DNA from: Bacteroidia bacterium
GTDB lineage: Bacteria; Bacteroidota; Bacteroidia; B-17B0; Aurantibacillaceae
DNA: 64,000 bases
Assembly: GCA_016787445.1 (NCBI GenBank)
Contig: JAEUTQ010000036.1
Span: forward strand, 1 to 64,000
Reading direction: 5' to 3'
Part shown: piece by piece, positions 13,253-58,521 of the stretch
Numbering within the stretch: the first letter of the stretch is position 1
How the letters are laid out: each line of letters begins with the position of its first letter
Program-made: the position numbers and the translations under genes
Notes under the pieces: model-generated
What the model saw: the letters and a program-made list of their open reading frames with translations, nothing else
Told to the model about the DNA's origin: nothing
Database searches by the model: none

Positions 13253-13273
13253 TGAATTTTTGACTAGAGATAA

Positions 13274-13356
13274 CTGTCAGGTCGAGCGGAGTCGAGACCT
13301 TAACGGTTATGGAAGGAATTAAGTTTGTCTTTTCTCGACTCCGCTCGAAATGACAA
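13274..13356. repeat. Inverted pair of the TCGAGCGGAGTCGAGA repeat (short form)
   Basis: GTCAGGTCGAGCGGAGTCGA is at 13276-13295 on the plus strand and the same motif is inverted at 13333-13355 (TCTCGACTCCGCTCGA then AATGACA). The spacer is about 33 bases. It is the short counterpart of the 434-base inverted pair at 13430-13863, which has a GIY-YIG gene between its arms. Confidence 0.75.
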
Positions 13357-13429
13357 ACGGGAAAAGTCCGAAAAATAAGTAGATTGTCAATCGGAGTCAA
13401 AACTGTGAAGTGTGTTGTTAAGTATTCGT

Positions 13430-13863
13430 ATGTCAGGTCGAGCGGAGTCGAGACCGCTTAGTAATTAGTAAAAAATGAGATATGGCTAAATTTAAAATTC
13501 TTTATGTGTATATACTTTCCTGCGCAGATAGAACATATTATACAGGCGTAACAAATGATTTGGAAAGGCGACTGCTACAACATAAACTGGGTGTTAATAA
13601 GATGGCATATACTTTTACTCGCCGCCCGGTTGAATTAGTCTACTACGAATCATTCAATAATTACCTTTTGGCTATAGAATGGGAATCTAGGATAAAGAAA
13701 TGGAGTAATAAGAAGAAAAGGGCATTGGTAGAATCGGATTGGAATAAACTAAAGGAAGCGTCTGAATGTAAAAATGCTACTTCTCATAAATTTCACTCTA
13801 AGTTCAAATTAAATAAAAATAATTAGATTTGTATTTAGGTCTCGACTACGCTCGACCTGACAT
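13430..13863. mobile_element. Candidate mobile element: GIY-YIG gene between 26-base inverted repeats
   Basis: The left arm 13430-13455 (ATGTCAGGTCGAGCGGAGTC then GAGACC) and the right arm 13838-13863, read on the opposite strand, differ at one of 26 positions (GCGGAG versus GCGTAG). Between them is only the GIY-YIG ORF. Related single motifs lie at 13276, 13333, 54662 (interrupted), 54784, 58374 and 58452. The arms are themselves semi-palindromic (TCGA...TCGA). No direct repeat flanking the unit is obvious. Mobility is inference. Confidence 0.4.
13482..13826 (+). CDS. Solitary GIY-YIG endonuclease-domain protein
   Basis: 114 residues, a stand-alone GIY-YIG nuclease fold. The motif strands are VYILSC (GIY position) and YYTGVT (YIG position), followed by the catalytic Arg in NDLERRLLQHK, and the catalytic Glu in AIEWESRIKKW. 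The C-terminus after residue 95 (ASECKNATSHKFHSK) is low-quality tail. This small family (COG2827 type) occurs in several copies in many Bacteroidota, and its cellular target is unknown. The gene lies alone between the two arms of a 26-base inverted repeat, and a second family member at 55156 lies in a duplicated tRNA gene. A role in repeat or element movement is a hypothesis. Confidence 0.9.
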   Translation: MAKFKILYVYILSCADRTYYTGVTNDLERRLLQHKLGVNKMAYTFTRRPVELVYYESFNNYLLAIEWESRIKKWSNKKKRALVESDWNKLKEASECKNATSHKFHSKFKLNKNN

Positions 13864-13868
13864 CAATT

Positions 13869-54524: not shown

Positions 54525-54886
54525 TGATTAATGTTTGATGTTTAGTGTTTGATGTTTATAATACGTCATTGCGAGGAACGAAGCAATCTTTAACTCACCC
54601 CTTGCCCCTCTCGATGAATAGAGAAGGGGAAGAATAAATCAAATCTTAAATATTCGATTGTTGTCATGTCGAGTTTATTCTTCGTATAACATTGAAGGTG
54701 GGCGTAGTCGAGACATCTTTTACAAGTAACAGATTCCTCCCTCCTCCCGATAGCTATCGGGACGGAATGACGAATACACAGAATGTCATGTCGAGCGAAG
54801 TTGAGACATCTTTTCAAACTCACACCAACTCTCAACAGGGAAAGTGGGGGAAGAATTCGTACCTCATTTACTTCATTATATAAATT
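54525..54886. repeat. Repeat field downstream of mutS
   Basis: No gene. In order: a TGTTTGATGTTTAGTGTTTG-type AT repeat (from about 54530); GTCATTGCGAGGAACGAAGC (54567-54586; also at 58301-58320); a CTCACCCC/CCCTCTC copy (54593-54628); a TGTCATGTCGAG...CGTAGTCGAGACAT copy split by 29 bases (54662-54716); CAGATTCCTCCC...GGAATGACGAATACACAG with an inserted CCCGATAGCTATCGGG (54730-54784); and another TGTCATGTCGAG copy (54784-54809). Short frames here are by-products of the repeats. Confidence 0.8.
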
Positions 54887-55092: not shown

Positions 55093-55166
55093 TACCTCCG
55101 GCGGGACTTGAACCCGCACGACTGTTGAGGTCACCCCGATAAAATCGGGGCGTGTCTACCAATTTC
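55093..55166 (-). pseudogene. Truncated tRNA-Leu copy with exchanged anticodon arm
   Basis: On the minus strand this matches tRNA-Leu(TAA) from the D-loop (AATTGGTAGACACG) to the 3' end, but has no 5' acceptor strand (the upstream bases are TTAATTAAT). The 17-base anticodon arm is replaced by CCCCGATTTTATCGGGG, a perfect 5-base stem with 7-base loop that would give anticodon TTT. The T-arm and variable arm are identical to the intact gene. It cannot fold an acceptor stem, so it should be inactive. The GIY-YIG gene at 55156 ends inside it: its TAG stop is the TAG of GGTAGACACG. Confidence 0.85.
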
Positions 55167-55407
55167 CATTAATTAAACTTTCAATATATTTTCTGCTTTT
55201 CATCCTTTTTATTCTGCTCTCTTCTTGAATCGCTTCGATTTCAGATGAAAATAGTTTTTTTGATTTTATGACATAGGGAATCCCACCTTTTGTAGCTTTA
55301 ACGGCACCTTTATTATGTCTCTCCTCTAATCTCTTTTCAGGATTTTCAGAATATCCAACATAGTACCTGTTTACTTTTTCGGAATATAGAATATATACAT
55401 AAAACAT
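55156..55407 (-). CDS. Solitary GIY-YIG endonuclease-domain protein inside duplicated tRNA-Leu
   Basis: 83 residues, a minimal GIY-YIG domain: FYVYILYSEKVNRYYVGYSE (VYIL and YVG strands), catalytic Arg in NPEKRLEERHNKG, catalytic Glu in AIQEESRIKRMKSRKYIES. The final codons (SLINGNW and stop) are made of tRNA-Leu sequence: the TAG is in the D-loop of the truncated copy. On the minus strand the order is intact tRNA-Leu, its terminator, this gene, then the 3' tRNA fragment. That is the order left when an element inserts into a tRNA gene and rebuilds it. It resembles the other solitary GIY-YIG at 13482 only in the family core. No integrase is present; mobility is inference. Confidence 0.88.
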   Translation of the reverse strand: MFYVYILYSEKVNRYYVGYSENPEKRLEERHNKGAVKATKGGIPYVIKSKKLFSSEIEAIQEESRIKRMKSRKYIESLINGNW

Positions 55408-55442: not shown

Positions 55443-55443
55443 G

Positions 55444-55528
55444 TACCTCCGGCGGGACTTGAACCCGCACGACTGTTGAGGTCACAGGATTTTAAGTCCT
55501 GCGTGTCTACCAATTCCACCACAGAGGC
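55444..55528 (-). tRNA. tRNA-Leu (anticodon TAA)
   Basis: 85 bases. Acceptor GCCTCTG pairs with CGGAGGT (two G-U), anticodon stem CAGGA/TCCTG with loop CTTAAAA (anticodon TAA), long variable arm as in class II tRNAs, T-arm GCGGG TTCAAGT CCCGC, discriminator A. CCA is not encoded. Confidence 0.96.
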
Positions 55529-58297: not shown

Positions 58298-58521
58298 TCG
58301 TCATTGCGAGGAACGAAGCAATCTTATTTATTAACAGATTCCTCCCGATGGTCGGAATGACGAATACACAGAATGTCATGTCGAGCGTAGTCGAGACATT
58401 TTTTTCAAGTAACAGATTCCTCCCGTTGGTCGGAATGACGAATACACAGAATGTCATGTCGAGCGTAGTCGAGACATTTTTTTCAAGTAACAGATTCCTC
58501 CCGATGGTCGGAATGACGAAC
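58298..58521. repeat. 78-base tandem repeat (2.4 units) with GTCATTGCGAGG leader
   Basis: GTCATTGCGAGGAACGAAGC (58301-58320) is followed by units starting AACAGATTCCTCCCG at 58333, 58411 and 58489, spaced exactly 78 bases. Each unit holds CGGAATGACGAATACACAG, TGTCATGTCGAGCGTAGTCG and a T-run. The third unit stops after GGAATGACGAA (58521). A diverged single copy is at 54726-54820. Units differ at single positions (CCCGATGG versus CCCGTTGG). Confidence 0.88.

Follow-up and report, generated by a model that had tools for sequence, protein, structure and literature searches.

The architecture described in this study has its nearest known counterpart in the REP/RAYT systems, in which the RAYT gene is described as always flanked by two inverted repetitive extragenic palindromic (REP) repeats with a GT(A/G)G head (PMC2817692). 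The CGTC-tagged REPs are widespread short bacterial repeats with an unpaired CGTC/TGTC head at one end and a palindromic body, arranged mostly as head-head dimers, and they "apparently lack a dedicated transposase" (Di Nocera, De Gregorio, Rocco 2013, PMC3733652); that survey examined transposase genes, does not mention GIY in its main text and left the origin of the repeats open. The text of a 2025 REP survey contains no mention of GIY, nuclease, RAYT or transposase (PMC12306157). Among small nucleases, the freestanding GIY-YIG homing endonucleases (T4 Seg, SegB) are solitary and intergenic, sometimes located at tRNA genes, and the accessible part of the source describes no dispersed cognate repeat family for the T4 Seg family (PMC2988022). 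The UPF0213/COG2827 proteins 1zg2 and 1ywl are labelled hypothetical, their labels conveying neither a function nor an association with repeats. In Caulobacter, which is CGTC-positive in the 2013 survey (PMC3733652), three unexplained COG2827 genes were noted in 2007, one of them with an SOS box, and a role in repair was proposed (PMC1839093). Searches of the open-access literature turned up no paper that, judged by its title, links GIY-YIG to repetitive extragenic palindromic repeats, and nothing relevant by title came from looking there for the repeat sequences of this study as words; a link could still exist in a preprint or a paper behind subscription.

The locus studied here belongs to a window of 64,000 nucleotides, the whole stretch of DNA analysed, in the 3.77-Mb genome of a Bacteroidia bacterium (G000). 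As in REP/RAYT, two inverted headed palindromes enclose a small gene for a nuclease, the palindrome is dispersed as singles and inverted dimers, types of gene and repeat co-vary, and gain and loss are recent. Unlike REP/RAYT, the enzyme is a GIY-YIG and not an HUH/Y1 protein (PF01797), and the repeat head is GTC(A) instead of GTAG/GTGG.

Results

A GIY-YIG gene between inverted REP units

The bracketing arms (26 nt, 25/26 matching, 96% complementary) lie 382 nt apart, and the GIY-YIG gene is the sole ORF of at least 60 aa between them (Table 1). The near-perfect inverted repeats around this gene, with no other gene enclosed, had been noticed in the sequence-only reading and were re-found, as was the gene-less inverted pair of the same motif described just upstream (arms 13275-13297 and 13333-13355, 91% complementary, 35 nt apart). 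Three of the dispersed family members named there, at 54784, 58374 and 58452, are real; the one at 54662 proved to be a unit split by about 29 nt in its core. Among ORFs of at least 60 aa between the bracketing arms there is no DDE transposase, and the locus does not qualify as an IS element or MITE. An HUH/Y1 tyrosine transposase is also absent between the arms, where PF01541 (GIY-YIG) is the only match.

Table 1. Positions of the GIY-YIG gene and REP units in the window
Feature	Position	Strand	Remark
GIY-YIG nuclease gene, 114 aa	13482..13826	+	ORF list; Pfam PF01541, E 1e-16
Left REP unit bracketing the GIY-YIG gene, TGTCA head outward	13430..13455	+	
Right REP unit bracketing the GIY-YIG gene, TGTCA head outward	13838..13863	-	
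REP unit, left half of gene-less companion dimer	13275..13299	+	25 nt identical to 13431-13455
REP unit, right half of gene-less companion dimer	13333..13355	-	
Stretch with dimer, gene and REPs, missing at the radC-wecB junction of G007	13254..13866	.	
REP unit interrupted by ~29 nt inside the core	54662..54716	+	sequence
Dispersed single REP unit, core 54791-54806	54784..54809	+	
Dispersed REP unit, core 58381-58396	58374..58399	+	degenerate unit at same place in G007
Dispersed REP unit, core 58459-58474	58452..58477	+	

The encoded protein is related to UPF0213/COG2827 by both sequence and fold. Its AlphaFold2 model (pLDDT 83, low after residue 97) has the UPF0213 NMR structures 1zg2 and 1ywl as best fold matches in the PDB, followed by Slx1, a branched-DNA nuclease; the sequence matches to 1zg2 and 1ywl have E values of 1e-17 and 1e-13, and what defines the family, a GIY-YIG domain with Tyr, Arg and Glu, is present. 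Tyr10, Tyr20, Gly22, Arg30, His34 and Glu68, which we take to be the residues with catalytic meaning in GIY-YIG, are kept in 67 to 71 of the 71 proteins on the palindrome side of the protein tree described below. NCBIfam and PHROGs offered no family, and a DNA search with the gene as query gave weak partial matches only.

The unit is a headed palindrome

The motif TCGAGCGGAGTCGAGA occurs seven times in the window (at most 2 mismatches) versus not once in 100 dinucleotide shuffles. A search of the full genome for the motif, as proposed in the sequence-only reading, yielded 77 dispersed copies, with no match for the pattern read backwards. These copies form 37 clusters, and the adjacent units within clusters (n = 40) are oriented head-outward in 19 cases, tail-tail in 10 and in the same direction in 11. 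Across 39 distinct genomic units, each of the five bases before the core agrees with the head TGTCA in 38-39, and the two bases flanking the core each pair with the two opposite bases in 37 (in 2000 control shuffles the means were 16.5 and 15.8 and the maxima 28 and 26). The unit has the form TGTCA-N1N2-TCGAGCGNAGTCGAGA-N2'N1', a fixed head followed by a palindrome which, because NN and N'N' covary in 37/39 units, is held by compensatory change.

The TCGAGC unit, as we refer to it, belongs, as a palindrome with a head, to the CGTC/TGTC type of REP. The unpaired head of that type (CGTC/TGTC/CCTC) is represented by TGTC in the window family and by CGTC in most of the alpha-proteobacterial loci considered below, and the preference for head-head dimers is met by the 19 of 40 neighbouring pairs that are head-outward. 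A difference lies in the unpaired middle, which in the TCGAGC family is longer than the 4-5 nt loops of CGTC-tagged REPs; its stem/loop is weak and differs from a stem of 8-9 bp with a loop of 4-5 nt. Folded as single-stranded DNA, the unit does no better than its shuffles (z 0.30). The corresponding z is -4.6 for an Azospirillum unit (stem 8 bp, loop 4 nt), -4.2 for a TTGTTTCAG unit (stem 8 bp, loop 5 nt) and -0.39 for a GCAATG unit; the Azospirillum and TTGTTTCAG units thus have the stem and loop sizes of CGTC-tagged REPs. Because the TCGAGC unit folds weakly as single strand, recognition of the inverted repeat in duplex or cruciform is as likely as recognition of a hairpin.

Separately, a palindrome CCCGATAGCTATCGGG was observed to replace, or to sit inside, the REP core in the related genome G007 (L298 compared with L005), and it is found inside another headed repeat at ~54740-54765 of the window, as if palindromes nested in palindromes.

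Gain and loss at orthologous sites

The genes next to the locus were named radC and wecB from sequence. They are neighbours in all nine relatives' loci aligned (L166-L174), and the GIY-YIG gene is absent from every one of these nine junctions. In G007, whose DNA identity to G000 is 97.2% in radC and 97.8% in wecB, the junction holds 29 nt of unrelated filler versus 613 nt in G000 (dimer, gene and REPs). Because this stretch is missing from a sister genome with flanks 97-98% identical, the insertion is, as far as sequence comparison can tell, recent. The sequence-only reading had called for a comparison of occupied and empty sites in related strains and would have been refuted by a gene at the same position in all relatives; absence from G007 and from all nine junctions answers in its favour.

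The 60-kb stretch of G007 matching the window contains no motif at 2 mismatches versus 7 in the window; its 58.4-kb place shows a degenerate REP unit. A position in G007 could be assigned to twelve more REP sites of G000 (the probes of a 13th pair, L006, did not land together). Six of the twelve have the REP only in G000 (L008, L011, L012, L021, L022, L030) and six have it in both genomes (L001, L002, L003, L005, L013, L017), with one of two dimers missing in G007 at L013 and a foreign palindrome in the REP core of G007 at L005. When an empty site of the tRNA class was looked for, the tRNA-Met GIY-YIG insertion treated in the next section proved common to G000 and G007; the other five loci examined were without synteny. 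A second empty site is provided by Azospirillum lipoferum 4B, in which a GIY-YIG gene (L301 1483-1776) together with two REP dimers splits the suf operon (sufB|GIY|sufC), sufB and sufC being adjacent in A. ramasamyi, A. oryzae, B510 and A. thermophilum. The A. lipoferum plasmid carries 9 REP copies, and the plasmids of the other four carry 0, 0, 0 and 2, in that order. The empty sites are not clean, with short unrelated filler in place of the element; no target-site duplication was seen at the radC-wecB, REP-site or sufB-sufC comparisons, and intergenic regions of the genus turn over quickly between G000 and G007.

Repeat type follows the nuclease clade

Four further GIY-YIG genes are present in G000, and none of these sits in a TCGAGC motif. 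Members of another palindrome family, GTCATTGCGAG..GAAGCAATC, surround one of them (C81:2667), and the other three (C44:31874, C39:25253, C63:55156) lie at the genes for tRNA-Met, tRNA-Val and tRNA-Leu, with repeated tRNA pieces adjoining the Met and Leu genes and degenerate ones beside the Val case. Other GIY-YIG copies without association with the motif had been named in advance as grounds for refutation: the copies indeed lack the TCGAGC motif, but each is associated with a palindrome or tRNA repeats of its own. Because the other GIY-YIG genes of the genome sit in a different palindrome or at tRNA genes, each nuclease clade has its own target, and the association is one of GIY-YIG genes with repeats, a particular repeat for each gene.

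Among 60 related genomes, 44 have a match to the window protein, and 119 gene copies in 114 loci were covered, 8 weak matches having been left out. The control comprised 302 ORFs taken from these genomes, out of 20 stretches of 20 kb chosen arbitrarily. Bracketing by repeats is far commoner for solitary GIY-YIG genes than for control genes, an association that the sequence-only reading had put forward for testing: with 150-nt flanks, bracketing inverted repeats (score at least 18) were found for 15/117 GIY-YIG genes versus 0/302 control ORFs, and bracketing direct repeats for 50/117 versus 5/302. A tRNA gene is located within 300 nt of 28/119 GIY-YIG genes versus 5/302 control ORFs. The tree of the 119 proteins has two sides: one consists of 48 rows, of which 35 carry a tRNA label and 13 carry none; the other consists of 71 rows, of which 66 carry a palindrome label and 5 no repeat label. 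The tree requires 29 label changes versus a mean of 77.3 on shuffling (0/200 shuffles as low), and motif type follows the protein clade across host families. Support of the tree is modest, with 46 of 115 inner branches open; the motif labels derive from ten regexes, apart from 13 "otherPAL" rows labelled by eye and L035, which was set to tRNA by hand. The GIY-YIG genes are patchy, recent and multi-copy per genome, and include pseudogenes.

The TCGAGC motif is common to the clade members of G000, G017, G034, G030, G041 and G056, which represent three host families. Seven motif copies spaced ~75 nt apart precede the gene in G017, with an inverted copy 19 nt after the match; G056 has two copies before the gene and an inverted one after it. 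The regex scan placed the motif on one side only in 4/6 genes of the clade (L037, L038, L039, L056), although for L039 the genome search showed both sides to have it. The palindrome-labelled genes without tRNA number 53; 35 of them are flanked left and right by one and the same motif, and in 20 of these 35 the nearest units are oriented "+-".

In the sister clade at tRNA genes (L033, L114, L117, L120, L121, L127, L129, L131, L132, L142), a solitary GIY-YIG gene was observed just 3' of a tRNA gene or tRNA 3' end and in the same orientation; the far side of the gene has a duplicate of the tRNA 3' end, in many cases including a terminator. These loci are possibly minimal tRNA-targeting elements. 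The window contains an arrangement of this tRNA type as well: a second GIY-YIG gene, with an in-frame TAG, at 55156-55407 (-) lies 3' of tRNA-Leu (55443-55528), with a partial tRNA-Leu copy on its far side. Elsewhere, tandem GIY-YIG copies are separated by direct repeats of tRNA ends (L131, L110) or by palindromes (L100).

Carriage of a clade and copy number of its motif

With clades taken from the protein tree, carriage of a nuclease clade predicts the copy number of its motif. At least two copies of TCGAGC are present in 6/6 carriers (median 34) versus 18/54 non-carriers (median 0; p 3e-4), of GCAATG in 11/12 carriers (median 17) versus 10/48 non-carriers (p 1e-5), and of TTGTTTCAG in 9/9 carriers versus 7/51 non-carriers (p 2e-7). 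Off-diagonal tests are weaker, but GCAATG carriers against the TTGTTTCAG motif reach p 2.7e-4, and because this association is also strong, shared host lineage is a confounder. Genomes with many TCGAGC copies yet without a gene of the clade (G011 with 55, G007 with 45, G002 with 42) are as expected if repeats outlive the enzyme, and equally as expected under a rival mover.

Independent loci

When one genome per species was scanned with three proteins of the GCAATG clade, 80 of 373 relatives were listed, giving 79 usable loci. Among these usable loci of the matches listed, GAAGCAATC or GTCATTGCGA occurs within 200 nt of the gene in 60/79 and on both sides in 46/79, as compared to 0/302 control ORFs and, for other ORFs of the same loci, 12/98 within 200 nt and 1/98 on both sides. 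The loci of the matches listed are mostly from Bacteroidota; those from Candidatus Brocadia (L267), Thermodesulfovibrionia (L276) and Melioribacteraceae (L236) also have the repeat and call for caution, being metagenome bins.

In a plasmid collection, 17 of 33 matching records were examined, including the near-duplicates L307/L315 and L303/L316; some records are chromosome-sized and filed as plasmids. Bracketing inverted repeats (score at least 16) were detected in 11/17 loci (Novosphingobium, Azospirillum, three Shinella, Rhizobium, Neorhizobium, two Sphingobium, Neisseria, S. meliloti), and the arms of most of them are CGTC-headed REPs, for example CGTCATCCTCGGGCTTGACCCGAGGATCCA. Azospirillum lipoferum, Neisseria, Sinorhizobium meliloti and N. 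aromaticivorans, in which GIY-YIG genes here lie between such repeats, are named in the CGTC survey (PMC3733652). Headed repeats lie on both sides of the gene, at lower scores, in Planktothrix and Spirosoma; the Aeromonas gene has direct copies, that of Sinorhizobium K101 has repeats on one side only, in Photobacterium CGTC REPs appear only ~0.3 kb or more beyond the gene, and at the R. tumorigenes locus no recognisable repeat was found. Other ORFs of the plasmid-collection loci are bracketed in 3/16 cases, all by CGTC-type arms.

Discussion

We understand the locus as a mobile, REPtron-like unit that uses a GIY-YIG nuclease where REPtrons have an HUH/Y1 tyrosine transposase, an interpretation we consider probable, its elements of cleavage and mobilisation being inferred. 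In design the unit matches a REPtron, but its enzyme keeps it out of that family, because the defining HUH/Y1 transposase was tested for and is absent. The original suggestion of a REP/RAYT-like system with GIY-YIG in place of the tyrosine nuclease is supported by the empty sites, the bracketing and the match between repeat and clade, mobilisation excepted, which stays an inference. What was observed comprises the architecture, the correspondence of clade and repeat, the covariation within the palindrome, and the recent gain or loss, at orthologous sites, of gene and REPs. Cleavage of REPs is unproven for any member of the family, and several observations weigh against the interpretation: the unclean empty sites without target-site duplication, the motif copies in genomes that lack the TCGAGC clade, the strong off-diagonal association, the motif found on a single side of part of the TCGAGC-clade genes, the 5 of 71 palindrome-side genes without repeat label, the weak single-strand fold of the TCGAGC unit and the open branches of the tree.

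Among the alternatives, a domesticated structure-specific nuclease survives best, though we consider it unlikely. Such an enzyme would resolve, trim or repair REP hairpins or cruciforms and move nothing, and the REPs nearby would be regulatory or recombinational leftovers. The fold neighbours UPF0213 and Slx1, the latter acting on branched DNA, and the repair role proposed for the Caulobacter COG2827 genes, one with its SOS box, in PMC1839093 are compatible with it; the patchy, recent and multi-copy occurrence of the genes, pseudogenes included, is unlike that of housekeeping genes, and that motif type follows protein clade across host families also speaks against it. Quite unlikely, in our judgement, though likewise still live, is a freestanding homing endonuclease that lands safely in REPs (and tRNA genes), the REPs being spread by other means. 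T4 SegB, a freestanding GIY-YIG homing endonuclease of a tRNA intergenic region according to PMC2988022, offers a precedent, and the sister clade at tRNA 3' ends with duplicated tRNA ends would fit, but the explanation accounts neither for the own repeat type of each clade nor for the prediction of repeat copy number by carriage.

Movement of the REPs in trans by a RAYT or IS200/IS605-type transposase, with GIY-YIG as passenger, is disfavoured and seems very improbable to us. The enzyme would be available, PF01797 having 4 matches in G000 and being present in 42/60 relatives, but of the Y1 genes in G000, 0/4 are within 1.2 kb of a TCGAGC REP, and their flanks contain other repeats. Genomes without PF01797 match are rich in motifs all the same: the TCGAGC-clade carriers G030 and G034 have 8 and 18 copies of their motif, and G031 and G045 have 56 and 62 copies of GCAATG. 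Chance adjacency of a small gene to dispersed repeats in intergenic clutter, for which fast intergenic turnover between G000 and G007 and the 3/16 other ORFs near REP clusters bracketed by CGTC-type arms could be cited, is rejected as practically untenable on the 302 control ORFs of the same genomes, which lack the association, and on the tree-label and GCAATG-locus controls.

The Y1 genes at L321, L322 and L324 adjoin repeats of their own (GGCTTTAGCCC, GGATTTTTAATCC and GTCCCGTAGGGAC), so that G000 may contain RAYT-like systems alongside the GIY-YIG ones.

For the REPtron-like unit with GIY-YIG nuclease, the mechanism would be as follows. The nuclease would recognise its own REP family by the GTC(A) head and the imperfect palindrome, the REP probably being extruded as hairpin or cruciform, and would cut at or beside it. 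Repair of the break could then give rise to copies of REP-bounded DNA, including the nuclease gene, at other places. The non-autonomous passengers would be REPs that occur singly or as head-outward dimers, and the autonomous copy would be a dimer enclosing the gene. Cleavage, its position and the copying step are inferred.

Lastly, we lean slightly towards a more general proposition, in which the dedicated enzymes so far missing for the CGTC-tagged REP superfamily as a whole, its Neisseria dRS3-like repeats among them, are GIY-YIG proteins of UPF0213/COG2827 in several phyla, constituting a second, non-HUH class of REP-mobilising enzymes with a sister clade at tRNA 3' ends. For repeats without a known dedicated transposase these genes are obvious candidates, and a GIY-YIG candidate beside CGTC REPs in several phyla makes the origin of these repeats testable with a protein of ~100 residues. 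If the proposition is true, a role would fall to many of the solitary GIY-YIG genes at present annotated as "nuclease family protein" or "excinuclease subunit", and REP-type elements would have arisen at least twice, on unrelated nucleases.
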